From contig JACGCM010001927.1 of the NCBI GenBank assembly GCA_014058105.1, forward strand, positions 1,054,001-1,118,000: a stretch of DNA of 64,000 nt, in the 5' to 3' direction. Positions 10,442-53,181 of this stretch are shown here, piece after piece. Both the position numbers and the translations under genes were made by a program. The notes under the pieces are model-generated. The model made no database searches, was not told the DNA's origin, and worked only from the letters and a program-made list of their open reading frames with translations. This DNA is from Kingdonia uniflora. Taxonomy: Eukaryota; Streptophyta; Magnoliopsida; Ranunculales; Circaeasteraceae. Within the stretch, counting starts at the first letter, position 1, and each line of letters starts with the position of its first letter.

Positions 10442-11282
10442 TTGTACCCTACAAAAAAATAATTTTGTCCCTGAAATTGACATACCTGATTTTGTAAACA
10501 AAGAGGGGTAATCCTCTCTGATCTTGTCCTCTCGCTCCCAAGAAGCTTCACCATGATGGTGATTGCTCCACTAAACTTTGACTAATGGAATAGTATTGGT
10601 CCTAAGGACTTACTCCTTGCGATCCATAATAGTGACATGAAGCTTATCATAAGAAGCATCCTCTTGAATCTCGAGGGGTTGCCAATCAATAACGTGGGAT
10701 GGGTCACACTCATACTTACATAACATCGACACATAAAAAACATTATGAATCGGATCCATTGCTGGGGGTAAAGATAAATGATAAGTAACACTCCCAATCC
10801 GATCCAGAATATAAAAAGACCTGACAAACCTAGGTGTTATCTTACCCTTTTAACTAAAGTGCATCACCCCTTTTATAGGTGAAACTTTCAGAAAAATGTG
10901 GTCTCTAACAATAAACTCCAACGGTCTCCAACAAATGTTTACATAGCTCTTCTGTCGACTCTGTACTGTACGTAGTCTATCTCTGATCAGGCTAATACTC
11001 TCGGTAGTCTGAAGAACAATCTCTGGTACAAGCAAACTCTGATCACCGATCTCTGCTCAGCAGATAGGTAATCTACACAGCCTACCATACAATGACTCAA
11101 AAGGTGCTATACAAATGCTCGACTGGTAACTGTTATTGTACACAAACTTTACCAATGGTAAATGCTCAACCCAACTCCCCTTAAAATTAACCACACAAGC
11201 TCAAAGCATATCCTCCAAAATCTGATTAACCTGCTCTATCTAGCCATCGGTCTATGGGTGAAAGGCTGTACTAAAATCTAAC
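10442..11282 (-). pseudogene. Chromovirus integrase C-terminal half with chromodomain-like tail
   Basis: The reverse strand reads DFSTAFHPQTDGQIEQ (carrying the third catalytic residue, Glu, of the DDE triad), then NQILEDML, GSWVEHLPLVKFVYNNSY, APFESLYGRLCRLPIC, and the GPQ/Y-type tail (FYILDRIGSVTYHLSLPP, NVFYVSMLCKYECDPSHV). It finishes with TNTIPLVKV and SWERE, the usual end of chromoviral integrases. Several stops interrupt it. The N-terminal half of the same integrase lies at 26459 and beyond, on the other side of element A. In an intact element the tail helps target integration to heterochromatin. Confidence 0.85.
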
Positions 11283-12062
11283 TCTAATAGCCTAATTTTG
11301 TGATCCAAACTTAACCTTTACACCAAGGATATTCAGAGCTTCTAGATGAGTAAAGGAAGAGTAATAACACAAAGCTTTAGCGTGGAAAACCTTTGAATTG
11401 GTTAAAAACTACAACCTCTCTTAAGGATTTAGAAAGAGAGTAGTTTATTGATAGCTGTTAAATATTATATGAGAAGCTCTGAGTATTTAGTATAGAGTCT
11501 GGGTGAGTATTCCTCCACCTTTTGTCCCCTCATCTCGGATTCTTTGGTCTTATTTATAGGTCTTATAATATGACCGTTTGACGACCATTATTATCCTTAA
11601 TGACGGACCTTACAATATGTATTTGATAATTCTTGATTTGATTGTGTAATGTTCTGAGATTTGCTATTTAGTAACGGCTTCATTGATGACGGTGCATTTA
11701 TTTAACTCAAACTGCTGATGTTGAAGTCGAAAGTGATGACTGAAACTTTATAACTATTAATATATCTTTAATAGTACCACGTATTATGTCGATAAGGTCG
11801 AGTGGTTGTATGATGGTCGAAGATAAAGCTTGAGTTCGAGATGCAGAATAAGACACTACAAGATGGCTCTCAGCCAAGAGTAGGAGAAGCATCATGGGCG
11901 AGTGGTGTTGGTTAAGAAGTTCATACTATATCCGTAATATGAAGTTGCTATCTTGATTTTGATTGTGCCATACATGTGCCACGTATTATGTTGATGAGGT
12001 CGGATGATCGTATGCTGGTTGAAGATGAAGCATGAGTTCGAGATATGAAATAAGCCACTACA
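11283..12062 (-). repeat. Element A left LTR (minus orientation)
   Basis: About 780 bp. Reverse strand starts TGTAGTGGCTTATTTC at 12062, directly after the polypurine run GAGAGGGGGCGG, and ends GGCTATTAGA at 11283. A TATA box (TATAAATA, reverse strand of 11551-11558) sits mid-LTR. It contains the same partial internal duplication seen in the right LTR. By eye it is about 90% identical to the right LTR over the stretches compared. Confidence 0.85.
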
Positions 12063-12309
12063 ACCGCCCCCTCTCTGTCAACAGTACAAAAAATATTGTG
12101 GGTGAGTGGTGTTGGTAGGCGAGTGGTGTTGGTTGAAAAACATCATCAATACTGTAATTAATACCTGAGAATTATTTCCAATGTATCTTCATGAATATCT
12201 ATTTGTAGCTTTTAGGTTTTCTAAAACCAATGGTTCTAGTCAATTTTATTGCATGGGAAATCCTCCGGACATTGGGAATTTTGATAGTCAGCTTTAATGT
12301 TGATCATAG

Positions 12310-12318
12310 TATAAAAGG
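12310..12318 (+). promoter_or_regulatory. TATA box of antisense unit a1, element A
   Basis: TATAAAAGG about 100 bp before the a1 ATG. The equivalent position upstream of a1 in the right arm and in elements B (TATAAATA, 35874) and C (CTATAAATAG, 52369) also has a TATA box. Confidence 0.6.
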
Positions 12319-12414
12319 TACTCTGACTGGTGTGTGGTGAACCAAGTCTTCTTCCCTGAACTGTTTCTTTTGTGTTATGGTTTCTACATTTGAAATATTC
12401 TAACGGTTGAGAGT

Positions 12415-12855
12415 ATGGTAATGATAAGGCAGCAGACTTGGGAGGCTAGGATTCAAAGGAAGATAAAAGAATTTTGCGTCAGATACTTTGGTTACCACTC
12501 TTTGCATCTACCGATGGCAATTCTGGTGTCCTCTGCATACCATCGTATGACATATAAAGAGGTGATGGAGGCGGGGAATGACTATTAACAAATGGCGCAC
12601 TTCCATTATCTGTTAACATCGGAGGATGAGCGTCAAAATGGGCTGAGGCTACTGGTAGAGGAGGCTATTACAATTGAAGATGAAGTGACAGGCGTTCGTC
12701 CGAGGGAGTCTCGTCGGTATCCTGCTAGTAAGTGGGTCCTATCTAAGAAATATGACCCTCCGTCTGTCTCTTGCATGTGGGGTGGTGGGGGTTATGGTGG
12801 AAGAGGTGGCGGTGGCAGAAGTTTTTCTTTCAGGGACTATAGATATTGGCCATGA
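12415..12855 (+). pseudogene. Antisense accessory ORF a1 of element A (left copy), glycine-rich C-terminus
   Basis: Frame of 147 codons starting MVMIRQQTWEARIQRK and ending in a glycine-rich tail (GGGGYGGRGGGGRSFSF). One in-frame TAA (about 12585) follows the conserved EVMEAGNDY. A shared core (FCVRYFGYHSLHLP, YHRMTYKEVMEA) recurs in the right arm (25073-25339) and, more diverged, in element B (35963-36298), so this is a conserved element-borne protein, not a chance ORF. The function is unknown; a glycine-rich tail after a small globular part recalls RNA-binding proteins but no RRM is visible. It lies opposite in strand to pol, just inside the 3' LTR, under its own TATA box. An acceptor-like TCCTGCAG follows at about 12930. 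Confidence 0.6.
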
Positions 12856-13727
12856 AGAAGATCCTTCTACTGGTGCCGTACTTCTTTGGTAATTTCCAGT
12901 TCTACTGCTTCCTTGCTCTATCCTGCAGGGGATCAAAGTTTGGAAGATACTTCAATTTTTCATCTTCTTCATCGGTGGCTGCTGAGGAATGTTTCGAACT
13001 ATAACTTGATGTATTTTGTAAAATAATCTGTGAATTGTCTGGAACATTTCTAATCTATAAAGTAATCTGTAAAAAACTTTCGAATTAGTGAATCATTTTG
13101 ATGTTGTGTTTTGAACTGCTCAATTTATAGCTTTCTGTTTCCAAAATAGAAGTCTGTGAAAATATAGGTATGAGGAATGGTAGTTTGTCATGGAGTATTG
13201 CTGGGCAAATCAAACTGTAAATATCTTAGTGTGTATATTTGTGAAGGGCAGTGGAAGTTGAGGTTTGAAAAATAGAGGAGCTCAAAAATGTAACAATGGT
13301 CATGTGGTAAAAATAAGTAAACAATTTGTTAAGATGATTGGGTGGCTGTAAAGGTATGCGTATGTTTGCGAGCTACTAATTCGAACTGACTAGAAAATGT
13401 CTGGCCGTATGGAAGTAACTTATATCTGCCTGTAGGTGCTACTGCTAGACATGCTTGATTTGTATGTTGCGATCTCCATATCTATAGGCATAAAATCTGT
13501 GGAGATATTTCCTAACATGGAAAGTATGACCTGTCACAATATTTTTTGGCTTTTGCTAATATTTGTATTTCTAAAATTTCGTACAATATATCTTTTAACA
13601 AAATCTATGGGGCGATTGAGATTTTCAGAAATCTTCATTTTCTCTATATAAAGTAGTGGTCCTTAGTTGCTATGTCTTATTTCTTCTGTCAGAGGCAATT
13701 TTCCTGTTTGAGGTAGAGTGAGCAACC
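12856..13727 (+). other. Spacer between a1 and a2 in element A
   Basis: AT-rich, no recognised coding sequence. It holds the TATA box of the second antisense unit (TATATAAAG, 13645-13653). Confidence 0.45.
13645..13653 (+). promoter_or_regulatory. TATA box of antisense unit a2, element A
   Basis: TATATAAAG about 75 bp before the a2 ATG at 13728. Matching TATA boxes precede a2 in B (55019-55028) and C (reverse strand, 51361-51368). Confidence 0.55.
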
Positions 13728-14086
13728 ATGGTGAGGGCACGCTTTCAACGTGTACGGCATGCAGTAGAAGGTAGGTTTCATATCAAGGCCACTGAACTTC
13801 ATGAATGATACTTTCGTCATTTGCCGTATGATGCCGTTCTTTCGAGGTGACTATTGAAAGTAACTGGTTTAGATGATGATGGTTGGCGTGTAGAGGTTGA
13901 TCAATTTTTCTGGTATGATATTTTTCGTGAGTTTCTGTTGAACGCAACCTTACGAGAAGAAGTTGTTTGAGAGATCGTACGGGACAAGTTTGCTGAAGAA
14001 GATGAGAGAGTAGCAGAGGGGAGATAATACCATGTGGTGTGGTAAATCATCTGGGCTGTTTTAAATGGAACTATATGTTACTGTAA
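13728..14086 (+). pseudogene. Antisense accessory ORF a2 of element A
   Basis: Starts MVRARFQRVRHAVEG. The opening MV(R/K)(A/T)R.Q, the later YDAVL, WYDIFREFL and AEEDERVAEG segments match a2 of element B (MVRTHSQSARHASEGH, AEEDERIVGN) and of C (MVKTRSQRIVEA, YDAVLLDT). A one-base shift near 14020 moves the conserved C-terminus (CGVVNHLGCFKWNY against CGTTGHLGCFMCDY in B) into another frame, and TGA/TGA stops occur earlier, so it is not translatable as is. Basic N-terminus; no known domain recognised. The function is unknown. Confidence 0.6.
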
Positions 14087-15105
14087 TTTTGAATTGTGAG
14101 AGGTTGAAAATGAATAAGTAATCTGTTTTCAATATTCTATTTTGGTAGCCTGTTAAATGTAGAATGATGCATGTTGATGCAACGAACTGAAAGGAATAAA
14201 ATTAAAATATTTTTTTTTGTTATTTATGTGGCAGATATTATGGATGATAGATGTGTGATTTTAACAACTGTATAAATAGTTTCGAATATTGAGTTATTTT
14301 AGGAATGTCGTACGATCTTGGTATAGTATAAAAGTAAGGTGATTAGTCGTGTATACTACTTTAGGAAAAAGGGGCATATTTTTATAATGGTAGACAATAG
14401 AGACAGACGTGATGATAGTAGACGTTATCACAGAAGTCATGATGATGCTGTGAGACGAAATGATGTGCCTGTGGAGACAGTAGGGGTGACTGACATGTGT
14501 TTGAAGGAGCTGTTATTTTGTAAACTGAGGGAGAGTATAAGAACTTGTATCTCTCTCCCTCATAAATTATCTATAATTATAGAGAGAAAAAAGTAGTTTA
14601 AACCATATCCCTATAGAGAAGAAACGTTTGAGTTCTGAGGGTGTTTTGGTAAGGAAGGATTCATCTGGTGATCTAAAATTGTTGGAGAAGCAACAGGGGT
14701 AGTCAATTTCTGTAAAATGTTTGGGTAAAGCAAAAAATTGTTGTTCTTCAAGTACATGTTAGTGTCATATGTCTCTATTTTGTTTTGATTTGTTATTGCT
14801 AGTAATCTGTGTATGATATTGTATGTTTATCATTTTTAATTGAGGGATACAAAAGTTGAGAATGTAGGGGTTTTAAGATTTTGAGTAATTGCATGTATAG
14901 TTCTGTAGTGTATAAGCTTTGGGTATATGAACAGACTATAGGGAGAGAAAATGTTTTTTTGGAGAAGAAGAGGAAAAATTGAAATGATTATTTGTTATTT
15001 TGGAAAGTTAGAAAATAAATGTATTGACTGTGTAGAAATATGGGTGGAGTTCTTTTTATTGTGTGTAGGGTGTAGCATGTAATGTAGATATAATGATAAA
15101 ATATT
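14087..15105 (+). other. Element A region equivalent to ORF a3, degraded
   Basis: In B and C a short ORF (a3) lies here. In A only an Arg/Asp-rich frame remains (MVDNRDRRDDSRRYHRSHDD, from 14387). Otherwise AT-rich with short runs and no recognised domain. Confidence 0.35.
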
Positions 15106-18100
15106 TTGTGTATTTGTATGTCCAGTATGCGTTCAAAATCTATATATCCTATGAGTAAATTTGTAGTAACATCAAGTTCAGTGGAAACATCATCGCTGGG
15201 GAGGGAGGACGATTGTAAGACTGTAGATAAGATAGACGTTACTGTAGGTGTACAGGTTGGGGAATCTAGTAAAGTAGAAAAAGTTATAGGGAAAGAGGAT
15301 ACAAAAGAGAAAGATAAATGGTTTTTCATATATCCTGAGGGAGTAGATGTAGGAAAGGAATTTTTGAAATACAAAAAGAAATTACAGGGAGAATGGGGAA
15401 ATTATATGACAGACCAAGGTCACTGGTTTAGGGCTTATGTCTTAGGAAAAGGGGAGGAGGCGGTATACTATCAAGTTTCTTGTTTGGAGAAGTGGAAAAG
15501 GGCGAAAGGGATTAGTGAGGATGTTAAAATATTGTATTATAATGGCCTTGGGTTGGCAGGCCCGAATGATGGGTTTTAATGTTATCTGAATCAGGTCGTT
15601 TATGGCCTTAGAATTCCTCTGACCTTATTTCAGAAAGGGGTTATGAATGTATTGCAGTGCTATCCTGTCCAACTAAATGGGAATGTGTATATGATGATGA
15701 CGATATGCGATGCTCTGAATAAGAAATGGTGAAGGGAAAGGACTGCCAAGAAGTTTGAAGCTGATGAGGCGTTAAAATTTTATAAATGAAAGTACGTCAA
15801 AGGTCAAAATAGTTGTTACCTGTATAGTGATTCGTCTAGGCCAAAAAATTTTGACTTTGAATCTACGGGTAGACCATGGAATGACCACCGTGTATGGGTT
15901 GGGGAAACTGTATGCAGGTTCCAGACAAACCAGCGCTCATCCTGAACCATAAATATTATAACCTGAGTAAGTAATATTGACCAGATTCGACTAACCATCA
16001 TCATGTCTTCGAGCTGCTAAATATTATTTTGTTTCTTGTTTTGTCAGATCCCAATCCTTTATCGGCGCCTGATAATACCAGCTTTTTCAACTGCATAACT
16101 CATGATCAGGTCAAGTTAAAGCAGGTACTTGGTGAGCTAGGTATCTGGAGGGATAAGAGGGTAGATTCTATAGTACCCAAAGTTTAGTGAGCTCATGAGA
16201 ATCGAGCTATGGCTGAGAAGAAAGCCCGCTTAACTGTTGATGATGTCACTAGTCTTCCTCTTCCTGTTCCAAAAAATATTATCGTGAAATGGACTACTCG
16301 GAGGTCGAAATAACCAGCTCCGTAAACTGCGCCTGCTACTATGGTGGTGATCTCAGACCAAGAGATTACAAAACCTGCTACTAGAGATGTTGAGAAGTGG
16401 CAGGAAGTGAGAAAAGCTACTCCTTCAGAGGCTAAGAAGAACCCGTTGAAAAGAAAATGACACGAGGACGAGGGTAGTACTTGTACTAATGCTCAAGTTA
16501 CGGCCAAGATGAGAGAGCTGGAGTAAAAATACTGTATGATGGTGGGGACTAATCCGCAGCAGCACGATGAGGTGTACCAAGAGCAAATTTTTGTGGTATG
16601 TATTAATAATTTTGACGTACTGTATTTGGAAAGTGATATGTTGTTCTGAACTTGCATTTTTGTATTTGTAGCTCTCGATGCTGATGAAGGGGGTGACGAT
16701 GTTTATTGAAAAGAGGAGCCAAGAGTTCGAAGATCTTACTATGAGGTTGGATGCTCAATTGGCTTAAATGAAGAAGTTTGATGCTGAGTTCGAGATAGAG
16801 AATAAGGAGAGGGCTAAAGATGCCATGGTTGCTGAAGAGCGGTATACATCACTATCCGGGAATGATGATGTTATGACACGATCATGCGAGGCAATGTGGG
16901 TGGGAAGAAATCAATTTGTCTAATCTTTTTATAGCTTTGGGTTTACTACTGCCAATATAGAGTTAGGCCAAACTGGCAAATATGATGAGATAGTCTTCCC
17001 TTTAGATGTAGAGGAGAAAGTGGTGGCTGATGCTGCTGGTCCAGCCAATTTATCTACTTCATCCACTGAACTAGTTCTAGCTGCTGATAAGACATTGGGT
17101 CCTCCATCTGAGGTAGAAATCAACAAGAATCGTTAATCACTCTATGGTATTCTATGTTGAACTATACAGTTTATTTGATTTTGATGTGATTGTACTCTGT
17201 AGGTCGTAAACTATTAAGTTTCATAGACACATTTTAATATGTTCTGCTTGAATGTTTGTATGATGATAACATATTTGTAATTTGTATAGAAGGTAGAGCA
17301 GTTGAGAAAAACTAAATCCGACCTGGAGAGATCATTGAGTAGAACAAAGGATTCAGTGTCTCGTATTCAATAGGTATTAAATAAAGCTGAGTATGAGAGA
17401 AGGCTGTTTAAATCTAATTCGGAGAAAAACTTTAAAGAATTATATGACCTTCAATATAGATATGCTAAGGTAAAAATAGAAAGGGATGAGGTGTTCAGAA
17501 AGGAAGAGGAAAGAGGGGTGTTAGTTCGAGAACCAAAAGAGTTGGCCTGTTTTAATGACCCGAGTGATAAGACTAGGTGTCAATGTCTGTTGATAGTTCT
17601 GATATTATATTTTGAGGTCGAAGTAGATTGTAAATGGGATTTAAAAGAAGCTTATATAGAATTTTTGAAGGAAAAGGGTGTAGTACCTAACCCAGTTTGA
17701 GTAATGTTTCTAGCTCAAGAAACACGTAATTGCCATAATATAGATGCAAACAAATGCTCAACGCGAGCTGGGGTGTCCGTTATATAGGGTGGCGTATAAC
17801 CATTACCTGATATTTTTGACTTTATGTAGGATCGAAGGGCAATGAGGATTGAGTTTTTTAGGTTAAGGAAAGAGAAAATAGAGGTTTAACAGAAGTTAGA
17901 GGGTGAGTTAAAGGAGTTGTAAGATTTATTGTCGTAACATATAGAGCAAAAAATATCTTTAGCGATACAATTGTCAAAAGAAGTAACTGTTCAAAAGAAG
18001 GTAGAAACTGATGTGAGGGCTTTAGGCGTACTGCAAAAAGAAATGCGCAAGTATCTGTGCAGGGCACAAATGCAGTTGAAGGAGCATCTGTATCCATCAC

Positions 18101-19940
18101 AAGCAAAAAGTGTAGCACGAACGGAGTATGAGCGTCATATAGAAAATGTGATTGAATTTTATAGAGGGGCGCTGACGAGGGTAGAGAACAAATTTAGAAA
18201 GTTTGCAACTGGTTGTGGGAAAGATTTTGATGTGGAGAATGCAAAAGTAGAAAATATGTGGTTTACGAAAGATGAGGAGGGAAAGGTTCTTGAAAAACCC
18301 ATTTTTAGGCCGATAGAGAATATCTCAGAAGAGGATGAGGAGGAGGTTAAGAGCCTGATACCCTGATCGCGGTGAAAGCAACACCATCAGAAGGTGGTAA
18401 CCTTTTTATCTCCTGTAGATGTTCATGTAAAGAATTTAAAGAGTTCGAGAGATAAGGGGCAATCTTCTCGTAGCTCAAAAAAGTGAAAGTAGATTAGTTC
18501 AGTTATTTACCGAATTTGTATGTGCATTAGTTTTTTGTAAACTGCTTTTGATGTTGAATGAAAGCTGTTCTCTGTGATGACCATATAAATAGATAAATGT
18601 ATTGATATTACTTAAATATTTTGTTCTTGAGTAAACTTTTGTTTACTTTGATATGCAATCTGTTTAAATATGTAAAGTAGTATAAATGTTAATTGCTGTG
18701 ACAAGTAGAACTGACAGCTGTTCAGAGCTAATGTGACGCATTACATGCTCAAAATGAACAATTGAATGCTGAACTAACTTTGTGTCAGGGCGCACTAAAT
18801 AGTACTACTAAGTTAGAAGAAGAAATAAAGGTAAAGATATCAAAAGAGTGAAGTACAGTAGTGCGTTTGACCGATAAACTGGAAGATAAAGAGGCCGAAC
18901 TAGCCATTGAGTTGAGAAAGATGGAGGGATTAAAAGTTGTCATCAGAAAAAATGATGTGGAAACTTTGGGTATGTTGGTACAAATCAACCAACAAGAGGA
19001 AAAATTGACATCTGCGCGAACCTAAATTTCAGAGATGTTGGCAGTGTTAGAGAAGGAAGCAAATAATGTGAAAGACTTTCAATACCAGATAAACATGCCC
19101 GAAGAGAAGAGAGTTTGTGCGTGAGCAACTATTAAAGAAGTAAATGATCGTGCTCATAAATTTGAAGTATTAATGTATGTTACGAACATGATGTTAACCG
19201 AGATAAAAGAGACCCATAGTGAACAAAATGAAATGATAAATAAGGATTGGATCACGATCTGTGCTTTGCAGCATTGCGTTCAGCCGATGAGGGTAGAGAT
19301 TTAGGATTATAAATAAGAAAATGGGGAACTGTGTGATGCAAACACCAAATTGGAGGAAAATATTTGCAAGACTACAATAAGTCTTGAGGAAGAAGTATCA
19401 GAGAGGAAGTGTAATCAAACTCGTACAAATGAATCAACAGGCTTTATGGCAAACATGGTTGAGTTTATGGCGATAATGGAAGGTCGTAATAATGCGACGT
19501 TGAGTGAAAAACGAGCGTTGGAAGAAAGCTGTAGAAGTTTGGAAGCTTTGCTGAAGGAGGCTAAAGGACAACTTGCAAGGTTTGTTCTTCCTGATAAGGT
19601 AAAATGTGAGGCAAGTAATGCGCATGAGAGATAAATGACAGCAGTGCTCTCCTTCTTTGTATCCGAGTTCAAGAAATTAGAGGTGGAAAGTAAAACTGTA
19701 TATGACAAGCTAGTTGCTGATGGTGTATAGTGTGAGATAGGGTTGAGACGATCTGAGTATCTGGATCCCATGATAGCAAAAATTGGTGCTCTTACAAAGA
19801 ATAAGGTAAAAGAAGGAAAACAAATTGTGACTTGAAGGATGCCATAGTTCATACATCTGCGACTTTGTGGGGAAAGTTTGCGTAGTGCTGTGCGGCCTGA
19901 TAGCTCAAGTGATAATACGTGTGATAGCTCGAGTGACTGA
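15106..19940 (+). pseudogene. Antisense multi-exon accessory gene of element A (globular domain plus coiled coil)
   Basis: First part (about 15300-15966) encodes a globular domain: FIYPEGVDVGKEFLKY, GEWGNYMTDQGHWFRAY, then CYLNQVVYGLRIPLTLFQKG, YPVQLNGNVYMMM, CDALNKKW, SSRPKNFDFESTG. This aligns with 49230-50010 (C) and 56345-57183 (B). A first intron GTAAGT...TTTTGTCAG spans 15967-16047 and a second GTATGT...TTTGTAG spans 16596-16671; both have partners in B and C. The remainder (16680-19940) is rich in Glu, Lys, Leu and heptad-like, a long coiled coil, broken by many stops and frameshifts. The globular domain recalls the Pfam family 'putative gypsy type transposon' (Transposase_28), from memory and not searched. 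Convergent with pol; the two meet at the tandem repeat at 20120. Role unknown. Confidence 0.65.
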
Positions 19941-20119
19941 TGAGGCTTATGGATGTTATAAGGGATTATTCAGACTATACTAATGAAAATATAGTAGATA
20001 GAGTGTAACAAGATGTGACAGTTGATAAAAGTAATGATCTATATAAAATTGTACTAATCTTGTGATGAATCGATTGCGATATATAAGCTTGTTAGCAACT
20101 TTGCCGTATAATAGAGAGT

Positions 20120-20447
20120 TGGTTTGGCTGAAGCAATAAATGCTTAATATAATAAAAGATCGGTTTGGCTGAAGTAACAAATGATCTATAATGTAATAGA
20201 AGATCAATTTGGCTGATGCAACAAATGATCTGTAATGTAATAGAAGATCAATTTGGCTGAACCAACAAACGATCTATAATAGAAGATCAATTTGGCTAGA
20301 GCAACAAATGATCTGTAATGAAATAGAAGATCAATTTGGCTGAAGCAACAAACGATCTGTAATAGAAGATCAATTTGGTTGAAGCAACAAACAATATGTA
20401 ATGTAATAGAAGATCAATTTGGCTGTAGCAACAAGCGATCTGTAATA
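20120..20447. repeat. Tandem repeat, about 8 copies of a 39-44 bp unit
   Basis: Units of the form (A/G)(A/G)TTTGGCTGAAGCAACAAA...GATCTGTAATGTAATAGAAGATC. Lengths alternate between about 44 and 39 bp because the GTAAT segment is present or absent. It lies between the ends of the converging antisense gene and pol of element A, where element C carries a different tandem repeat. Confidence 0.9.
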
Positions 20448-20759
20448 TACTCGAATGGGGTGATCATACTAGTAATCTGCGATGTTTAAATATGTAATAT
20501 GTATATAAAAGTACTTGTATGATATAGTAGGAAAGTACTATAGTGTAGGGTAATCAAACACAAGTATTTCATTATTGTAGGATTAACATATAAAGAATAT
20601 TAGGTGGAGTACTATTTGAAATTGTAGAAAGTACTCTGATGTATGACGATCAAACATAAGTGTTTAATTGATGTCAGACCGATGTACAAGATGATAAATT
20701 AATTTATTTAGAAAAGTACACTGTGATAGATTATTATCTTCGATATAACTTTAATCTCC

Positions 20760-23700
20760 TCGTGTTCTAAGGATTAGGTACTCGTTCCCCAAGTTCGGTA
20801 GCGAGGTCGTAAGAGCCAAGTCCACTTTTTCCAACAATGATAAAATGACCTTCCTAATTTTTGGCGAGTTTTCCGGCATTGATTTGTTTTATGTGTTTGG
20901 GGACTTCTTAGAGGACTAGATTTTTAATTTTGAACTCTCTATGACAAACTTGCTTATCTTCCCATGATCATGATTACTCTATCTCTAGTTTCTTTGATCC
21001 AATTAATGTTACATGCTAACTGAGTAGTATGGATTGGATGGAGAGTGGATGATGTTGTGCTGGTTGAGGAACTCAATAACTCTGGATCCAATTAGCTGAG
21101 GTCCATTGCCAATTCTAATAAGATGAGGGCAGCCAAAATATATTATGATGGTTTCCCATATAAACTTGATGACTTCGTCTTCACGTGTTCGACATAAAGG
21201 AACTATTTTAAGCCATTTGGTGAAGTAATTTGTTGCTACTAGGAGGTACTTCCTTTTGCCTGATATAGTGGGGAATTCTCCTACGAGGTTGAGGGCCCAT
21301 CTTCTGAATGGCCAAACAACATTACTAGAATGGAAATCCAAGGCAAGAGTTCGAATTTGCGGTCCTTGTCGTTGGTAGGCATCACACTTGATTGCGTATT
21401 CGATGGCTTCAGCTTTCATTTAAGCCAAAAAACTTCTTAAGTAAGAACTCAATTTTCTAAAGGTCGTCCTGCAGCATGGGACCCACAAATGCCTTCCTAA
21501 AGTTCATGCAGGAATTTTTGAGCTTCTTTATTCGATAAATATTCGAGATAGGGTCCTGTAACTGATTTTTTAAAAAGGAAATTATCGGCCACAACGTATC
21601 GCTTAGCATTATCAAGTACACATCTTCTTTCAGTAGGATTTTTAGGGAGTTCACTGTCAAACTTGTTTTGGGGTCCGATATAAGTAAAAAATGGTTATCC
21701 CCAATCGTCCTCATCCTCTTCAACTCCCCCAGTATTAAAAAAATTTGAGCTTATGATGCTAATGCCGGGGGTGGATAGTATTTTGATCTTGAGATATCGA
21801 GCTTTTGTGCCAAGGACTCCCACTAGATAGGCACGGAAATTAGAATATCTGTAATCTCTGTGAGGTAAATGTTCAATGGTAGCCTTCTTGAATCTGCGGA
21901 TTCGGTCGGCTACTCTACGGCATTATTAATCATTTTTCCATTTTTCTAAAATTTCTCTGTATAATGGTTCACAATGAGAAAAGAGTCTGTGTACACAGAT
22001 AACTCAGAGACTCCAATCTCTAGGGCCATATCGAGACCGTGAATTAATGCCTCATATTCGGTCTCATTGTTTGTAGCTTCAAAGTTGATTATGATTACTT
22101 TTTCAATTCTGTCATTGGAAGGTGTAATAAGAACGATGTCGATGCCTTACCTCGCAGGTCCGGCTGAACCATAAGTTAGAAGACGCCAACCTTTTTGAGA
22201 TATCCAATCTGACTTTTCTTTAAACTATTCTTCATTAATTTATGTACTATCTTATTCCCAGTCAGGATCTTCTACTGGGAAGTCTGTAAGAAAATCTGCT
22301 ACTGCTTCACCTTTTTCAGAATGCTATGGTTTAAAGCGTATGTCATGCTCGCTAAGAGTTACCGACAATTATTGTACTCGTCTTGATTTCTCGCGCTTAG
22401 ACATGATTTTGCGCAAAGGATAATTTTTCATTACTCGAACTGAGTGGGATTGGAAATACTATTTTAACTTCTGAGATGTGTAAACGAGAGCTAACAATAT
22501 TTTATCGATCTTGGTATATCGGGATTCTGCTGAAGTGAAAGTTTTGCTGATGAAGTAGACAGGTTTCTCCATCTTCTCATCAAGTCGAATGAGGACATAA
22601 CTCAATGACTCGTTGGTAATGGCAAGATATATGGTGAGTTCTTCTCCTTCCTTAGGTGTACTTATCACTGGTGGTTTGCCAAAATAATGTTTGAGTTCCT
22701 GAAATGCTACTTTACATTCTGGAATCTACTCGATCTAAAGATCTGTTTAAGATTTCTTTTTTGTTGTCCCTTCACGCAATAGGTCGAATAACCATCGACA
22801 TCGATCTAAATATTTGGAGACAAAGTGATTTATTGCTGATATCTAGCCTGCTAGCCTCTGTACGTCTTTATTTGTTTTTGGAGAAGACATAAATAAAAGT
22901 GCTGAATACAATTTGGATTAGCCTCAATGCCTTATTTGTTGATCAAATGGCCTAAGAATTTGCCTGACTGAACCCCAAACTGGCACTTGTCGGGATTGAG
23001 TTTCATTTTGTAGAAACGGAGAATTTTGAAAGTTGTGCGTAGATTCCCGATATGGTTATCCTTTTTGAGACTTTTACACAACATATCATCAATGTATACT
23101 TCCATCATTTTTCAGAGATGGTCTTTGAACATCTGTGTCATCAACCTTTGATAAGTGGCTCTAATATTCTTGAGATCGAAAGGCATAACCCTGTAGCAAT
23201 ACAGGCCATGCTCTATAATAAAAGTTGTTTTCTCCTGATTGTCAGGTAGTAGAGGTATTTGATTATACCCTGATGTGGCATCCATCATGGATAAGAGTTT
23301 ATATCCTGCAGTATAATCGAGCATATGGTTTATGATAGGAAGTGGAAAACTATCCTTCAGAGTATGTTTGTTGAGGTCTATGAAATCTACACACACTTTG
23401 ATCTTGTGGTTTCTCTTCGGTACTGCTATAATGTTCGAGATCCATTCTGGATGATTGGCTTTTCAAATAAAACCAATTTCAGTGAGTTTATCGATCTCTT
23501 TGTTGAAGAGTCTTGGTGCTAAAGTTCTCTATTTTTATTTGACAACTTCAGCTTTATCTTTCAAATTAATCTTATGGCAGACCAGATTGGGATTGATGCC
23601 CGACATTTCGTGTAACGTTCAAGAAAATACATTAATATTTTCTTTAAGGAACTGAATAAGAGCATCTCATTCTGTTATGGGCAGAAGAGTTCTAATGAAT

Positions 23701-24996
23701 GTTCCTCGTTTATCCCCACTGATTTTAACGTACTCAGCAATTTCTACACTTGGCAGCTAGTTTTTTTGTAGAGTTTACTGTAAAGTTCTCTATAATGTTC
23801 CTTATTATTTTCTATAATTACTATGTAATTTGTGGTATCGATGGTTCTGGTACGATGGTAACAATATTTTCATAGGCTCGAGTTAGCTTTCGTCTGCCTT
23901 TGATTTCGTAAATACCGTCATTCCATTTGGATCGTAGTGCCAAATGGTAGGTTGACGGAATAGCTCATATATTATGTAGCCAGCAACATCCCATTATCCC
24001 CTAATAATGGGATTTTGCATTGATAACGTAAAATACAATATCAATTGTCGCTGGTACTATCGTAATAGGAAGTATGATATTTCTTACACTTTCTTCTCTA
24101 GAACCGTTGAATCCACATATATCAATGTCACTAGGCTCTACTTCGTCGGCTAGCCCCATTTATCAATCGTGCTTTGAAAATGTAGTTTGATACTACTGCT
24201 AGTATCTACCATCATTGTATGTAGTACGACATTTCTCATTTTCAACATGATCACCAATGCATCATGGTAATGAAAGTTGATGTGGCAAACATCACAATCG
24301 TCAAAAGAGATCCCTGTGCATTAGGAGCTAGATAGAGAAAGTAACCAAGCTTTTTTCTCATCCATATAGATAAGTCGTGATATTGGCCGACACGTCGTCT
24401 TTTTCCCCTATTCGATTCGATAATAGTATGGGTCTCAATGAAGTGGCTTAGGGAGATATGGTATAAATGCTTCTCCTCTGCCATTTCTTTGACCTTTACA
24501 ACCTCCGAAGGAAGTCTAGAACTCCCGTTCTTGTAACTTTTAATGTCCACAATGTATTCGTGCATTTATCCATCTATAAAAATATACTCCAACAATCGCT
24601 GTAAAGCGAAACAATACTCTGCCTCATGATGTCGAACTTTGTGGTAAATGCGATATGGTTTATTCTCAATGGGTTAGAGATACTGTATATTGTGAAAAAA
24701 CTTATCCTTTTGAAGTATAGGATAAATACTGGCTATAGTAACAGTCATCTTGGGAAGATAGGGTTTTGGCATATTACTGCCTTTCCGAGGTCGATCTTTA
24801 TTAGATTTTGTTCACTTTTTGTCTCTTCCTTGATCAGCAACACGATTGAAATCTTGGCATGTGGATTGATCTATAGCTGTCAATATTAATTTATGAGTTT
24901 TCTGTCTGTCGGACACCATTCTTTCGAGATCGATATACCCATTGACTTTTTTGATCATGTCCTCCAAAGTTGTGGGTTTGTTTAGAACGAGGTATT
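20760..24996 (-). pseudogene. Element A gag-pol (Tat lineage), 5'-truncated and inactivated
   Basis: Reading leftwards on the reverse strand: gag remnant (TTLEDMIKKVNGYIDLERM) starting at the chimeric junction 24997; a zinc-knuckle-like CEYHKFRHHEAEYC near 24640; MHEYIVDIKSYKNGSS (24565); RT with MMDATSGYNQIPLL and an intact VYIDDM near 23100; the first RNase H (ISKTFTSAESRYTKI, 22459-22668); a second RNase H with EYEALIHGLDMALE and YTDSFLIVNHY (21950-22100); integrase (21009-21419), then a C-terminal piece (20760-20998). Stops and frameshifts are frequent. Two integrase catalytic Asp are replaced (WALNLVGEF, RIGNGPQL) and the stretch with the catalytic Glu is deleted at about 21010. Protease is barely recognisable. 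N-terminal gag, PBS and 5' LTR are absent. Confidence 0.85.
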
Positions 24997-25072
24997 TCTT
25001 CCACCATAACCCCTACCACCCCACATGCAAGAGACAGATAAAGGGTCCTATTTCTTTGATAGGACTCACTCA

Positions 25073-25339
25073 CTAGCAGGATACCGATGAGACTCCCTCG
25101 GACGACCTCAGCCCATTTTGGTACTCCTCCTCTGATGTCAACAGATAATAGAAGCACACCATTTGATAATAGTCATTCGTCGCCTCCATCACCTCTTCAT
25201 ATGTCATACGATGGTATGTAAGGGACACCGGAATTGGCGTTGGCAGATGCAGAAGATGGTAACCAAAGTATCTGACGCAGAATTCTTCCATCTTCCTTCG
25301 AATCATAATCTCCTGAGACTGCTTCCTTGTCATTACCAT
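25073..25339 (-). pseudogene. Antisense accessory ORF a1, inverted second copy in element A
   Basis: Starts MVMTRKQSQEIMIRRK and keeps FCVRYFGYHLLHLPTPIP, YHRMTYEEVMEATNDYYQM without the stop found in the left copy. A deletion of roughly 60 bp relative to the left copy shifts the frame and ends it at SSVSC. Downstream, its glycine-rich end is replaced by gag at the junction. It now faces the minus-strand gag-pol of the same element head to tail. Confidence 0.7.
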
Positions 25340-25613
25340 ACTCTCAACCGCTTGATAATTTTAAATACAAAAACCAAAACATAAAAGAAATAGTTCTGGA
25401 AAAAAAACTTGGTTCACCACACACCAATCAGAGTGCTATTTATACGATGATTAACATTAAAACCGACTCTCTAAATTCCTAATGTCTGGAGGATTTCCCA
25501 TGCAACAAAATTGACTAGAACCATTGGTTCTAGAAAACCTAAAAGTTACAAAAAGATATTCATGAAGATGCATTGGAAATGATTCCCAGGTATAAATTAT
25601 AGTATTGATGATA

Positions 25614-25975
25614 CTTCTCAACCAACACCACTCATCCACAATGTTTCTCGTACTTTTGGCTGAGAGGGGGCGGTTGTAGTGGCTTATTTTGCATCTCAGA
25701 CTCATATTTTATCTTCGACCAGCATACGATCATCCGACCTCATCAACATAACATGTGGCACATGTATGGTACAATCAAAATCAAGACAACAACTTTAGGT
25801 CATGGATATAACATGAACTTCTCAACCAACACCACTCGCCCATGATGCTTCTCGTACTCTTGGTTGAGAGCCGTCTTGTAGTGTCTTATTCCGTATCTCA
25901 AACTCAAGCTTCATCTTCGACCATCATACGACCACTCAACCTTATCAACATAACACATGACACTATTAAAGACAT
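25614..25975. repeat. 204-bp tandem duplication across the LTR/polypurine boundary
   Basis: The motif TTCTCAACCAACACCACTC...TCTCGTAC begins at 25614 and again at 25818. The first unit carries an intact GAGAGGGGGCGG polypurine run; the second has GAGAGCCGTC instead. The LTR start follows the first unit's tract, so the second, decayed one lies inside the LTR. The mirrored copy occurs in the left LTR. Confidence 0.75.
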
Positions 25976-26453
25976 ATTACAGTTACAGAGGTCGAGTCAT
26001 CACTTTTGACCTCTACATCAACAGTTCGAGTTAAATAAACGTACCGTTATCAATGAAGCCGTTACAAAATAGTAAAGATCAGAACGTTACACAATCAAAT
26101 CAAAAATTATCGAATGCATATTGTAACGTCCATTATTAAAGATAATAATGGTCGTCAAACCGTCATATAATAAGACCTATAAATAGGACCAAGGAATCTG
26201 AGATGAGGGGATGAAAGACAGAGGAATACTCTCCCAAACTCTATGTTAAATACTCAGAGCTTCTCTCATAATATCTAGCAGCTATCAATAAACTATTCTC
26301 TTTTTAAATCCTTAAGAGAGGTCGCGGTTTTTATCCTATTCAAAGGTTTTCCACGTTAAAGCTTTGTGTTATTACTCTTCCATTATTCATCTAGAAGTTT
26401 TGAATATCCTTGGTGTAAAGGCTAAGTTCGGATCACGAAATTAGGCTATTACA
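25675..26453 (+). repeat. Element A right LTR (plus orientation, inverted relative to pol)
   Basis: Starts TGTAGTGGCTTATTTT after the polypurine run GAGAGGGGGCGGT and ends GGCTATTACA. Length 779 bp. TATAAATAGG at 26178-26187 is the likely promoter element. A normal 5' LTR for the minus-strand pol would lie here in the opposite orientation. Confidence 0.88.
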
Positions 26454-26458
26454 CCAAT

Positions 26459-28501
26459 GATGTACCATATGATAACTGGAAGTTCTTCCAAAACTTAGAA
26501 GTGAACTTCGAATCCATGTCTAAAATAATTGATACAGGTACTTCATGAAATCTTATAATCTCCTTAATATACAACCGCGCTAAGTCATCAAAAGATGATG
26601 TACTACAAATAGCTAAGAAATGTGCTGACTTCGTTAAGTGGTCTATAATAACCCAAATAGAATCAAAACCTTGTTTTGATCCTGGTAACCCCGCAATGAA
26701 ATCCATCAAGATGTTCTCCTACTTCCACTCTGCTATAGGTAAAGGCTGGAGTGGCCCTGCTGGCTTTTGATGTTTGGCCTTCGCCTGCTGTCATGTCAGA
26801 TACTTGGACACATAATCAACAAACTCTCACTTCTTATTGTTCCACCAATAGTGCCTACACAAATCATGATACATCTTAGTACCTCCCAGATGAATGGTGA
26901 ACCTAGAATGATGAGCCTCGTCTAAAATCTTGCATTGTATCTCTGTATCATCTTGTACACATAATCTACCTCAATAACGAATAACCCTATCAGAACTAAT
27001 AACCAAGTCAGACTGACTGTCATCTGCAACCTAGTATGTAACTCCCCATCGTTCTGCTGAGCCTGAATGATCCTACAAATTAATGAAGGCTCAACTAAAA
27101 TCCTAAAATAGAATACCCCTGCAGATCGAAAACCTAACTGTGGATCAAACTTTAAGATCGTCTCTAACATCTCTTACTCTTTGATCATTAACTGCTCCAT
27201 GACGCCACGCGGCTTGCTACTTTGGGTATCCGCTGCAACATTAGCTTTGCCCGGGTGATACACGAACTCATAGTCATAATCCTTAAGGAACTCAATCCAT
27301 CTATGTTGCCTCATATTAGGCTCGGGCTGAGTGAAGAGGTACTTCAAACTTTTATGATCAGAGAAAAGCTCAAATCTCTCCCCATACAAATAGTGCCTTC
27401 AAATCTTTAATGCATAGATAATCGCTGCCAACTCCAAATCATGAGTTAGGTAATTCTTCTCGTGGATCTTCAACTATCTAGGCGCATAAGCAATAACCTT
27501 ACCATCCTGTATCTGTACAACCCAATCCATGTATTGAAGCATCAGAATAAACCACAAGCTTACCTCCCTTAGATAAAATATCTAACACCAGAGCTAAAGT
27601 AAGTCATCTCTTGAGTTCGATAAAAGCTTGCTAACATTGGTCATCCCAGACAAACTTGACCTCATTCCTAGTTAGGTTGGTCAAAGGCGCAGAAATCCTA
27701 GTAAAGTCTAATATAAATCTGCGATAATAACCCACCAACCCCAGAAAGCTACGTATCTCAGCAACCGTAGACGACCTCTGCCAATCAAGAACTACCTCAA
27801 CCTTGGAAGGGTCAACAGCTACCCCATTCTTTGATTCGACATGCCCTATGAATTTGACGTCCTCCTATCAAAAGTTATACTTCTAGAGCTTCGCAGACAA
27901 CTTGTGTTCTCTAATTTTCTTCAAAATAATGCGTAGGTGATTGTCATGTTCTTCCCTTGAAGGAGAATATATCAAGATATCATCTACAAACACCACAACG
28001 AACTTATCCTGATATAGTTTAAAAACCCAGTTCATAAGGTCCATAAATGCAGTTGGAGCATTAGTGAGTCCAAAAGGTATAACCCTGAACTCGTAATGAC
28101 TATATCTAGTCCGAAATGCAATCTTTGGAATAGCCTCCTCCATAACTCTAAGTTGGTGATAACCAGATCGTAAATCAATCTTAGAAAAGTATTAAGCTAC
28201 TCGCAACTTATCGAATAAGTCCTTAATTCGAGGCATTGGATAACGATTCTTGATCGTGACCTTGTTCAACTATCGATAATCAACACAAAGCCTCATCGAA
28301 CCATCCTTCTTCTTAACAAATAGAACTGGTACACCCCATGGTAAAGCACTTTCACGAATAAAACCCTGCTTTATCAACTTTTTAATCTGCCCATACAACT
28401 CCTTAAGCTCGACTGGTGGCATGTGATAAGTTGCTCGGGAAATGGGCTTGGTCCATGGCACTAAATTGATGTTAAAATCAATGTCTCGCTTTGGTGGGAG
28501 G
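26459..28501 (-). pseudogene. Chromovirus reverse transcriptase, RNase H and integrase N-terminal half
   Basis: From right to left on the reverse strand: [12 protein letters not shown] and the RT start ([36 protein letters not shown]), RT palm with [18 protein letters not shown] (the FVDD catalytic pair kept), RNase H ([38 protein letters not shown]), a degraded HHCC zinc region (about 26800-26930), and integrase core (DFIAGLPGSKQGFDSIWV, IILDMDSKFTSKFW). It stops at SYGTSL where element A is inserted and resumes at 11277. Several frame breaks are present, for example 28144-28270. It is cut at 28501 by a CACTA end. Confidence 0.9.
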
Positions 28502-28844
28502 CACTACTAGAAAATGGACCAACAACTACGGTCTATATTAGTTTAAGCCACAGTGGTAATAGTAGCTAAATGCTACAAACATAACCGTGGCCAAACTCCA
28601 AAATTCGTGGCAAAAGACATATACATATTTCTTTTTCGTGACACTAATTGTAACTTGTGGCCAAACCGTGGCGAATAACTCTAAAAACGCGAGATCCAAA
28701 ATTTAGATGTTCGATTTCCTTCGTTTCTAAACCCTCTCTTCCCACTTTGTAAGTTTCTCCCAAAAAAATTTCCTAAATTTTTTTCCCAAAAATCTTCGAT
28801 CATATCTCTCTCTCTGAGAAAAGGACAGATAGCTTAAAAGTTAG
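28502..28844. mobile_element. Orphan end of a CACTA element
   Basis: CACTACTAGAAAATGGACC at 28502 is a CACTA-type terminus, followed by GCCACAG, CCGTGGCC and CGTGGC subterminal motifs like those of the element at 381. No matching right end (...CTAGTAGTG or ...CTTGTAGTG) was found in the rest of the window. The 3' part is CT- and T-rich and ends near the LINE. The element is either truncated or its other end is beyond the window. Confidence 0.65.
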
Positions 28845-29292: not shown

Positions 29293-31130
29293 TATGGCCT
29301 GTTGGAATATTAGGGGTCTAAATGACTCTTTAAAACAAAAATAGATTAGTAGGCTCATTACTAAATTTAACATTGGCATTTTTGGGATTGTCGAAACCAA
29401 AATTTTGGAATTAAATAAAATGAGTATTGTTTAGTCCATGTGTAGAGGGTGGAACCTGATTGATAATTATGATTATGCTCTCTCTGGGAGAATTTGGGTG
29501 GTTTAGGACCCCAAGATGGTCAAGGTGGAGGTCCTTGAGAAGAATGACCTCTTGTGTACTCTACTTTTGTGTATACAAAATAGAATTTGGGTGGTTTATA
29601 CATACTCTTAATACTTTACATGATAATAGGAAATGGTACTCTACTTTTGTGTATGGCTATAATGATTACATACCTAGGAGGAGACTTTGGAATAAAATTG
29701 AAGCTATTGGGCAAGTCATTGACATTCCTTGGACTCTTCTTGGTGATTTCAATTCTATTTTGTACTCTAATAAAAAGATTAGTAGAGCTCCTCATATTCC
29801 TGCTACTATAGTGATTTTTTGGCCTACGTTCAAAACATTGAACTTATTGATTGTAAATATAAGGGTCGTTTTTTCACATGGTCCAATTGTCAAGTAGGTA
29901 CCATCAGAATTTTGACAAAAATTGACAAGGTGCTTATTAATTCTATCTGGTTAGATGAGATGCCTGAGGCTTAGATTGAGCTCCTCCCCCAAGGTATTTT
30001 TGACCACTCTCCAATGGTACTTAGCTTCTTTAACAATAAGAATGATGGTCCTAAGCCCTTTAAGTTTTTTAACTATTGGACCCAAGATGCAACTTTCCTT
30101 AATCTTATTGAGCAGACCTGGAATGTTAGAATTAAAGGCAACCCTATGTATGTGTTGATGACCAAGCTTAAGTTAGTTAAGGCAGCCCTGATCATTTGGT
30201 GCAAGGAGAGAAAGACTAATGCCACAAAAAAAGTCATTTTAACTAGGCAAAAGATGGATCAGGCTCAGTCTGCTTTTCAGTTGGACCCTTAGAATGACTC
30301 CCTTATAATGTATGATAGACCTGCCATCAAAGATTTTGTTATGAGTGCTAAAATGGAGGAATCATGTGCCAAGTAAAAATCTAGGGCAACCTGGTTTAAC
30401 TTTGGTGACAACACCTCTTTTTTTTCACAAAGCTGTTAAAATTAGGAGAAGTAGAAACCAAATTAACTACATCTATGATGGTAATGGAGTTAAAATTAAG
30501 AATTTCAAGGATATAGGTGATGAAGCTGTTAAATATTTTAAGGGTATCCTTGATACTCCCCATAATACTGAGTATGACAAAACTATTTTTGATAGTTTAA
30601 TTTCTACTTCTACTAGTGAAAGTGACGAGCTTGAAAATGATGTATCTATTAGTGAAATTATCACTGCTCTGAATGACATTGGTGATGAGAAGGCCCCGGG
30701 TCCTGATGGTTTCTCTTCACATTTTTTCAAAGTCACGTGGAACATTATAGGTAATGACTTTCTGAAAGCTATTCTTAACTTCTTTAGAACTGGAAATATG
30801 TTAGGAGTTATTAATGCTACAACTATTACCTTGGTACCTAAGATACCGAATCCCTCTACTTTTGGCGATTTTAGACTCATAGCCTATATGAATGTCATTT
30901 ACAAGGTAATCACTAAGGTTATGACTAACAGGATGAAATTCTGCCTATGTAAGCTTGTTAATATGAACCAATCAGCTTTTGTACCAGGAAGAAGTATTCA
31001 GGATAATATTATGATATCTCATGAGCTGGTTAGAAACTACCATAGAGATAAAGGTCCTCCTAGGTGCGTTGTTAAGATAGACCTTAAGAAGGCTTATGAT
31101 ATGGTGAGATGGGAAGCTGTCATTGACACT

Positions 31131-31390
31131 CTCACAAAATTAAAGTTTCCTAAGAAGTTCATCAATTGGATTAGAGTTTGCATTTCCACTGCAAAATACT
31201 CTATTTTAGTTAATGGAGTTCTTTATGGTTATTTTAAAGGTGAGAGGGGATTAAGACACTCTCACAAAATTAAAGTTTTTTAAGAAGTTCATCAATTGGA
31301 TTAGAGTTTGCATTTCCACTGTAAAATACTCTATTTTAGTTAATGGAGTTCTTTATGGTTATTTTAAAGGTGAGAGGGGATTAATACACG
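31131..31390 (+). repeat. 130-bp tandem duplication inside the LINE RT
   Basis: Copies 31131-31260 and 31261-31390 start CTCACAAAATTAAAGTTT and differ by only a few bases. Each is preceded by GACACT, suggesting slippage or microhomology repair at GACACTCTCAC. Since 130 is not a multiple of three, it shifts the reading frame just before the GDPMS motif. Confidence 0.92.
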
Positions 31391-38080: not shown

Positions 38081-38669
38081 CGTCGGGACTTATCCCTCGA
38101 GCTATGGACACTCGATCTCATCTATACCTCGAGCTCTAGAAGACTCGATCTTATCCAGTACCAGACTCACGCATAAACAAACACGTTAACAGTTATACAT
38201 CGACCACGAACTCAAGCAGAACGTGGATCGTCCACAACAGATGTAAACAGAACAAGTCAACATACACATGTCTTCCATGAGCTAGCAGTTACACACTCAA
38301 CTACCCATGACTCCCACTTTTAGGAGAACGTGTTCGAGCATAATGTCAAGCTGAGAACAAGGTCTATAAAAGGGCAAAGCTCCTTAGGAAAAGGGAGGTC
38401 AACGGAGAATTCGATACATACAATTATCTAATCTCTAGCTTTTTTATCTTAGATTAATTCTTGAAATTAGATTCTCTCATTTTCTCAAGCAATAATACTA
38501 CTTTCACAAAATCCTCCACTCAAGGTCGTGGTTTTTACCTATTCACAGGTTTTCCACACTAAATCCCCTGTGTCAAGTGTTATCTCTTATTTAATTCTTG
38601 GCATAGTAGTTCCTGGTGTAAGGATCGATTTCAAGCTAGTTCGAGCTTTACGAAAAATGGTCCCTACAT
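38081..38669 (+). repeat. Element C 5' LTR
   Basis: 589 bp. The first bases CGTCGGGACTT correspond to TGTAGGGACTT in the 3' LTR, so the terminal TG has mutated; it ends GGTCCCTACA. TATAAAAGG at 38365-38373 is the likely promoter. Rich in CTCGAG / CTCGAT motifs. Confidence 0.92.
38365..38373 (+). promoter_or_regulatory. TATA box in element C 5' LTR
   Basis: TATAAAAGG, matched by TATAAAAAGG at 52873-52882 in the 3' LTR. It would drive the genomic transcript. Confidence 0.65.
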
Positions 38670-38671
38670 TT

Positions 38672-38689
38672 GGCGCCGTCTGTGGGAAC
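38672..38689 (+). other. Primer binding site of element C
   Basis: TGGCGCCGTCTGTGGGAA begins two bases after the 5' LTR. It starts with TGG, the complement of a tRNA CCA end. The same TGGCGCCGT core follows element D's LTR at 62870. I do not assign the tRNA. Confidence 0.8.
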
Positions 38690-44460: not shown

Positions 44461-44650
44461 CAGCTCCTCCGTCGCTCAGTAACGTTCAATCCAAATCGAG
44501 ATTTCACCCCCAATGTATGTACAAACTCTTTTCAATCAATGAAATCTCTTTTTTATCACAAGAATCCCTGCTATACAGTTCCCCTTCATCTCCATCATCT
44601 CCAAGGGTAAAAGCACAGTTTATCCTAGCTCGATCCCTAAAGGTAAACAA

Positions 44651-52588: not shown

Positions 52589-53176
52589 TGTAGGGACTTT
52601 TCCCTCGAGCTATGGACACTCGATCTCATCTATACCTCGAGCTCTAGAAGACTCGATCTTATGCAGTACCAGACTCACGCATAAACAAACACGGTAACAG
52701 TTACACATCGACCACGAACTCAACCAGAACGTGGATCGTCTACAACATATGTAAACAGAACAAGTCAACATACACCTGTCTCCCACGAGCTAGCAGTTAC
52801 ACACTCAACTGCCCATGACTCCCACTTTTAGGAGAACGTGTTTGAGCCTGATTTCAAGCTGAGAATAGGGTCTATAAAAAGGCAGAGCTCCTAAGGAAAA
52901 GGGAGGTCAACGGAGAATTCGATACATACAATTATCTAATCTCTAGCTATTTTATCTTAGATTAATTCTTGTAATCAGATTCTCTCACTTTCTCAAGCAA
53001 TAATACTACTTTCACAAAATTCTTCACTCAAGGCCGTGGTTATTACCTATTCACAGGTTTTCCACGCTAAAATCCCGGTGTCAAGTGTTATCTCTTATTT
53101 AATTTTTGGTATAGTAGTTCTTGGTGTAAGGATCGATTTCAAGCTAGTTCAAGCTTTACGAAATCTGGTCCCTACA
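52589..53176 (+). repeat. Element C 3' LTR
   Basis: 588 bp, TGTAGGGACTTTTCCC ... GGTCCCTACA, followed by the CTAGG duplication. TATAAAAAGG at 52873. Confidence 0.93.
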
Positions 53177-53181
53177 CTAGG

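Follow-up and report, generated by a model that had tools for sequence, protein, structure and literature searches.

The stretch of DNA analysed here, called the window, comprises 64,000 nt of the Kingdonia uniflora genome (assembly GCA_014058105.1, contig JACGCM010001927.1, positions 1,054,001-1,118,000; label G000:C2545:1054001-1118000). It contains a minus-oriented, 15.2 kb retroelement at 11283-26453, which resembles the Tat/Retand elements in the structural features from which its lineage name is taken, and which interrupts the integrase gene of a chromovirus. The two long terminal repeats (LTRs) of this element are inverted, with the U5 end facing outward on both sides, and they are flanked by a 5-bp target-site duplication (TSD).

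Inverted ends and inner junction

The reverse transcriptase (RT), RNase H and integrase (IN) pieces of the element (RVT_1, RNase H and rve domains) are found on the minus strand, in the pol order RT, RNase H, IN, and the body therefore runs in minus orientation, so that its 3' end is on the left. That end has the ordinary structure of a 3' end, with an antisense open reading frame (ORF), a polypurine tract (PPT) and a 578-bp LTR (11283-11860, minus strand, U5 outward), the 3' LTR of the minus-oriented element. The right end has no 5' LTR, primer-binding site (PBS), leader or first part of gag. In their place, the 3' end is repeated in inverted orientation over 1.45 kb (24997-26453, plus strand); this copy runs from the start of the antisense ORF through the PPT region into a 577-bp LTR (25877-26453, plus strand), also with U5 outward. 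The limits of the LTRs were taken from comparison with relatives, and those of the right arm from self-comparison and from comparison with C142, an ordinary copy of the family.

The self-comparison, which an earlier sequence-only reading of the window had proposed as a check, gives a single long inverted pair, in which one end of the region matches the other (11285-12804 against 26451-24997; blastn, 83.4% identity over 1521 columns). When aligned base by base, the arms start at the outer LTR ends (GGCTATTAGA and GGCTATTACA) and stop near 12800 and 25001. The left arm, as defined by self-comparison and this alignment, is found at 11283-12801 (minus strand) and contains the LTR, the PPT region and the start of the antisense ORF. 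The inverted arm extends beyond the LTR, including the PPT region and then the first ~360 bp of the antisense ORF along with its upstream stretch.

PPT-like tracts are present on the inner side of both window LTRs, and the PBS that is seen after the 5' LTRs of relatives is not present beyond either outer LTR end. Because there is a PPT inside each LTR and a PBS after neither, both are 3' LTRs, with U5 outward on both sides. The arrangement given by the sequence-only reading, with a minus-oriented left LTR and a plus-oriented right LTR, agrees with the self-comparison, the inner PPTs and the missing PBS. The outer termini are TGTAATAGCC on the right and TCTAATAGCC on the left. Each outer end coincides with the terminal CA of the LTR and does not include the TT found ahead of the PBS; the right end reads TTACA/CCAAT, and the left end TTAGA/GTTAG, with one changed base. 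The element has inverted rather than direct LTRs, and no third LTR copy is found inside it by self-comparison.

The LTR length of 577-578 bp follows from the 5' LTRs of ordinary copies, which begin at the match to window position 25877. An LTR of ~780 bp, counted from an upstream PPT copy, was considered and dropped, given the 577-578 bp of the relatives. This second PPT-like tract, together with a copy of the U3 start, is located ~200 bp upstream of the LTR start (25675-25761 and 12060-11964); it is also present at the 3' end of C142, and the 5' LTRs of ordinary copies begin downstream of it. On the left side of the element, the PPT together with ~200 bp in which it and the start of U3 recur occupies 11861-12075 (minus strand), as detected by self-comparison and by a matching stretch at the 3' end of C142.

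C142 has direct LTRs and is flanked on each side by the TSD CTTAT; a PBS-like sequence (TGGCGCCGTC...) follows its 5' LTR after 2 nt. Window positions 11285-25001 are collinear, with gaps, with C142 282454-296294, and window positions 24999-26453 correspond to C142 283951-282452 in inverted orientation. The part of C142 that holds the 5' LTR, PBS, leader and gag start (296295-297944) has no counterpart at the right end of the window element. Comparison with the parent sequences places the junction between gag and the inverted 3' end at 24997-25001, where the two sides have (T)CTTC in common, giving a switch point with 4-5 bp of microhomology and no filler. The gag-side relatives mostly read ...CTTC and then other sequence (e.g. 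ACCCTTCCATCG); the antisense-ORF side reads TCTTCCACCATAACC in most copies, and the window reads TATTTCTTC/CACCATAA. A 241-bp query spanning the junction produced 40 scored matches (of 3975 candidates), and the window alone extends over both sides, the remaining matches (39) ending at query position 115-126. With no second occurrence of the junction in the 40 scored matches, the inverted structure represents a single event within the reach of the search.

Further cases were also sought among 100 listed of the 701 matches to the U5 end in the genome (up to 2 mismatches). These 100 include one outward-facing pair less than 80 kb apart, on C2312, in which the right LTR is followed by a PBS. This locus (C2312:930427-942519, L049/L051) was rejected as a second case, since a 5' LTR with a PBS after it stands on its right, where the element's 3' side was not located. 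It contains an inverted 3' end (LTR, PPT and part of the antisense ORF), 470 bp, and then a 5' LTR, PBS, gag and pol; its two LTRs are 89.3% alike, and it is a differently rearranged copy. Another candidate, L004 (C413), has an inverted U5 piece near its 5' LTR, but a PBS follows that LTR, and it too was set aside. The same-genome search for inverted LTR pairs that the sequence-only reading had suggested did find an outward-facing pair, but as a different rearrangement with a PBS, and the class of insertion which that reading had envisaged is unsupported so far, with a junction unique among the scored matches and no second case among the listed U5-end matches.

Target site in a chromovirus integrase gene

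The host chromovirus is also located on the minus strand. Before the insertion site (26454-28503), it contains RT (27883-28191), RNase H (27174-27398) and integrase as far as the residues GTSL, the integrase piece being a Pfam rve match below the cut-off. After the site (10600-11282), the translated flank and a domain match give integrase from LDFSTAFH onward, and then SH3_Tf2-1 (10610-10849). One chromovirus integrase gene supplies both flanks, GTSL on the right and LDFSTAFH on the left. Flank comparison places the two copies of the 5-bp target duplication at 11278-11282 (CTAAC) and 26454-26458 (CCAAT), and these are the 5-mers that had been read from the sequence originally.

The two flanks were compared with 108 integrase proteins, 44 of which are matched by both flank pieces. 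In 40 of the 44, the overlap between the pieces is one residue and nothing is missing, and the other four gave different offsets (-28 to -68). At the DNA level, nine loci of 40 other matches were examined, and all eight chromovirus copies holding both flanks show a flank overlap of exactly 5 nt, the ninth locus (L053) being without a left-flank match; for some of these copies the last 1-4 nt of the left flank were extrapolated without gaps. The original 5-mer suggested in the sequence-only reading, CTAAT, is absent from the eight comparable copies, which have CCAAC (3), CCAAT (2), CCAGC (2) and CCAAG (1) at the site. A search against solved structures found Ty3 as the sole retroelement, with an alignment that stops short of the insertion site.

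The TSDs of plant LTR elements are usually 5 bp, as reported in PMC11963269, and ordinary copies of this family are no different. The region of the other end was examined for 12 copies (C142, C826 and ten more), with an arm match in eight (L040, L041, L043 and L047 have none) and a TSD readable at both ends in five of those eight. All five pairs with both outer ends visible have a 5-bp TSD, exact in three and with one difference in two.

Arm divergence and other features

The two arms differ at 190 of 1453 ungapped columns (151 transitions and 39 transversions), corresponding to a Kimura two-parameter (K2P) distance of 0.1475. This distance is 0.140 for the LTR part and 0.157 for the non-LTR part when the LTR is taken as 780 bp, and with 577 bp the LTR value is also 0.140. 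Five ordinary LTR pairs have K2P values of 0.106-0.147, a range that includes the 0.140 of the window pair. By codon position of the antisense ORF, the arm differences number 18/111, 15/111 and 14/110, an even spread, as expected for differences arising after insertion; this spread carries information only if selection acts on that ORF in the family.

In a tree of the arms (14 rows), the window arms are sisters (Shimodaira-Hasegawa-like approximate likelihood ratio test (SH-aLRT) 92.3, ultrafast bootstrap 94), and in an LTR-only tree (27 rows) the window LTRs are found in one clade with L015 and L016 (92.1/93). The set used for divergence and trees excludes L001, L010, L018 and L031, which are the window right arm itself or second readings of the C142 5' LTR, as well as loci whose LTR match does not run approximately from start to end, for which reason the C2381 pair was left out. 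The arms thus belong to one subfamily and look similar in age to ordinary LTR pairs.

All pol pieces of the element are located on the minus strand: the integrase core (21009-21419; PF00665, E 1.3e-9), a second RNase H-like piece (21946-22146; RVT_3, PF13456), an RNase H piece (22459-22725; RT_RNaseH_2, PF17919) and RT in two pieces (22932-23462; PF00078). The element's own 5' side stops in a putative C-terminal remainder of gag (24812-25001, minus strand), assigned by its position between leader and RT in C142 and without a Pfam match above the cut-off. The antisense ORF near the 3' LTR (12394-12855, plus strand) is in two open pieces with a Gly/Arg-rich end; its Pfam matches, HMG_CoA_synt_C and similar families, are all below the cut-off and were set aside. 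More broken antisense ORFs are found between pol and the 3' LTR (14327-19634, plus strand), where the four pieces scanned gave no Pfam match or only matches below the cut-off, along with 7.7 copies of a 44-bp tandem repeat (20123-20446).

The region between pol and the 3' LTR is long and contains antisense ORFs and tandem repeats, as is described for the Retand elements of the Ty3/gypsy group, in which tandem repeats are often present (PMC11963269). The region is longer in the window element than the 2.9-6.6 kb reported in the same source. Scans of six antisense pieces from the left half of the element, where the ORFs are broken and only some pieces were covered, gave no match to the Retand TRP28 domain (PMC11963269).

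Elsewhere in the window, a 593-bp direct repeat (38082-38674 and 52590-53182; 93% identity, 14.5 kb apart) is probably the LTR pair of another long element. At 44648-45999 there is a tandem array of 8.8 copies of a 155-bp unit (88% matches), and at 31125-31389 a 130-bp unit is present twice in tandem, the copies being 97% alike.

Origin of the two-U5 structure

The element was probably formed by the joining of two minus-strand complementary DNAs (cDNAs) 3'-to-3', with each extended on the other; the resulting molecule would have had two U5 ends and been inserted by integrase. One integrase-type insertion fits best because of the 5-nt flank overlap, the U5 outer ends, the filler-free microhomology junction and an arm divergence like that of ordinary pairs, and the proposal of the sequence-only reading, that an aberrant cDNA carrying U5 at each end was inserted, is supported. 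The exact 5-base target duplication suggests that the U5-U5 form was present before entry into the chromosome.

From the observed structure, junction, exact 5-nt flank overlap and arm divergence, we infer the following intermediate and order of steps. In one particle of the Tat/Retand-like family, minus-strand cDNA synthesis would have begun twice, presumably on two packaged RNAs. The long minus strand would have extended from U5 via the 3' LTR, the antisense ORF region, IN, RNase H and RT into gag, and the short one only as far as the antisense ORF near the 3' LTR. The 3' ends may then have paired over 4-5 bases (TCTTC/GAAGA), each being extended on the other, or the partial cDNAs may have been end-joined at this point. 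The product would be a linear duplex with U5 at both ends, each 5' end being U5, and integrase would have trimmed and accepted these two ends, inserting them 5 bp apart in the chromovirus integrase gene. A single minus strand that folded back is also possible, and would leave one duplex end and a large loop still to open; the sequence would fit co-packaged strands, fold-back or end joining alike.

Several observations weigh against this origin. The structure is known from assembled sequence alone, just one event was found, and microhomology at the inner junction is also compatible with repair after insertion. The two copies of the TSD, CTAAC and CCAAT, agree at just three of five bases, a level that is weak on its own (it is reached by 106 of 1024 random 5-mers), and the strength of the target duplication rests on the exact 5-nt DNA overlap and the one-residue protein overlap, not on the likeness of the 5-mers. 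In the LTR-only tree, the left window LTR pairs with L015 (76.6/92) and not with the right window LTR, and four of the five ordinary pairs are sisters there (C826 is not). Among the 351 LTR pairs, 64 are closer than the window pair. The p-distances are 0.110 between the left LTR and L015 and 0.106 between the right LTR and L016, compared with 0.125 between the two window LTRs. Over the whole arm, the right arm is slightly nearer to L016 (0.1427) than to the left arm (0.1484). In view of these LTR distances and the LTR-only tree, the templates of the two arms may have been separate sibling RNAs rather than a single RNA, and a particle containing two such RNAs would be in keeping with a model of two cDNAs.

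The main rival to a two-U5 cDNA is an ordinary insertion in which a later two-jump replication or repair error swapped the 5' LTR, leader and gag start for an inverted 3' end. Such an error is possible, but less likely than the insertion of a preformed two-U5 molecule, and we consider it improbable. It would retain the TSD and account for the microhomology at the inner junction, and the short terminal inverted repeat common to the LTR ends (TGTA, in some copies TGTAAT) would make an outer jump possible. However, that outer jump would be confined to the first 4-6 bases of the LTR, with the second jump in gag, and both would be to an inverted template ~14 kb away. Ordinary 5' LTRs start with TGTA(A/G)TGG variants, whereas the right end of the window element is TGTAATAGCC, and an arm divergence within that of ordinary pairs implies that the event would be about as old as the insertion itself. 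A fusion by deletion of two nearby insertions in opposite directions is very unlikely. Family copies on opposite strands do neighbour each other, as on C2312, and the window LTRs are not strict sisters in the LTR-only tree, but two unrelated TSDs and a loss or gain of host bases would be expected, and the exact 5-nt overlap in eight of eight copies leaves this explanation nearly excluded by the empty-site comparison; the arms are also sisters in the arm tree.

An assembly or library artefact, derived from a chimeric or fold-back molecule, has an equally slight probability. The 40 scored matches include the junction just once, and it is available as assembled sequence only, which an artefact would explain, but the arms of a fold-back molecule should be near-identical, and here 190 of 1453 sites differ and indels are present. 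An exact 5-nt host overlap is not expected from an artefact either, and the position of the window past 1,054,000 of its contig, with other contigs of several Mb, suggests that long reads were probably used. Least probable of all is an element from a lineage that replicates in inverted form: no supporting evidence was found among the 40 scored junction matches, of which the other 39 do not have the junction, and an element without a PBS or 5' LTR could not be copied in the ordinary way.

Inverted LTRs are known from DIRS elements, which use a tyrosine recombinase and are not known to give a TSD. The window element is similar in its inverted terminal repeats, but differs in that it has a DDE-type integrase domain (21009-21419) and a 5-bp TSD, and in that the LTRs of an ordinary relative are direct; the window domain scans gave no evidence of a tyrosine recombinase, with no search aimed specifically at one. 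The nearest case in the published accounts consulted is that of the Triticeae template-switch complexes (Sabot and Schulman 2007, PMC1950507), in which the LTRs are direct. There too, an aberrant cDNA inserted once was inferred from a single flanking 5-bp TSD and similar outer LTRs (PMC1950507). The units of those complexes, as described, have in common a third, internal LTR in the same direction (PMC1950507), whereas the window element has two inverted LTRs and U5 at both ends, and would require DNA as a template or end joining.

The two reactions invoked here have counterparts in published work. Retroviral integrases are reported to join two U5-type ends in concert in vitro with a duplication of fixed length, which is 5 bp for Rev-A (PMC3790719); those ends were on separate short DNAs, whereas in the window they are both ends of one 15.2 kb genomic molecule. 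Self-priming of the minus-strand strong-stop DNA of human immunodeficiency virus type 1 (HIV-1) is documented as a side reaction, in which minus-strand cDNA serves as a template for DNA synthesis (PMC4668388). In HIV-1, as reported there, this occurs at the strong-stop stage and gives aberrant products, whereas the window element would involve long cDNAs and an integrated product. No inverted-LTR insertion with a TSD was named in the titles or the openings of abstracts listed in literature searches, with subscription journals thinly covered.

What was found is one event and not a class. It can be suggested tentatively, and with more doubt than confidence, that it belongs to an overlooked class in which pairs of cDNAs are extended on each other's 3' ends and the palindrome-ended products, with two U5 ends, are integrated normally. 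If this is true, the class would be recognisable by two inverted 3' ends, one exact TSD and no PBS, and tools that depend on direct LTRs would miss it. With the microhomology junction added to the exact 5-bp TSD, these features form a signature that could be used to search any plant genome. Inverted arms of this kind may also be sources of double-stranded RNA. The element is a natural record, preserved in a genome, of the probable use of two U5 ends of a single molecule by an LTR-element integrase, a reaction known in vitro, and of the capacity of minus-strand DNA for head-to-head joining ahead of integration.

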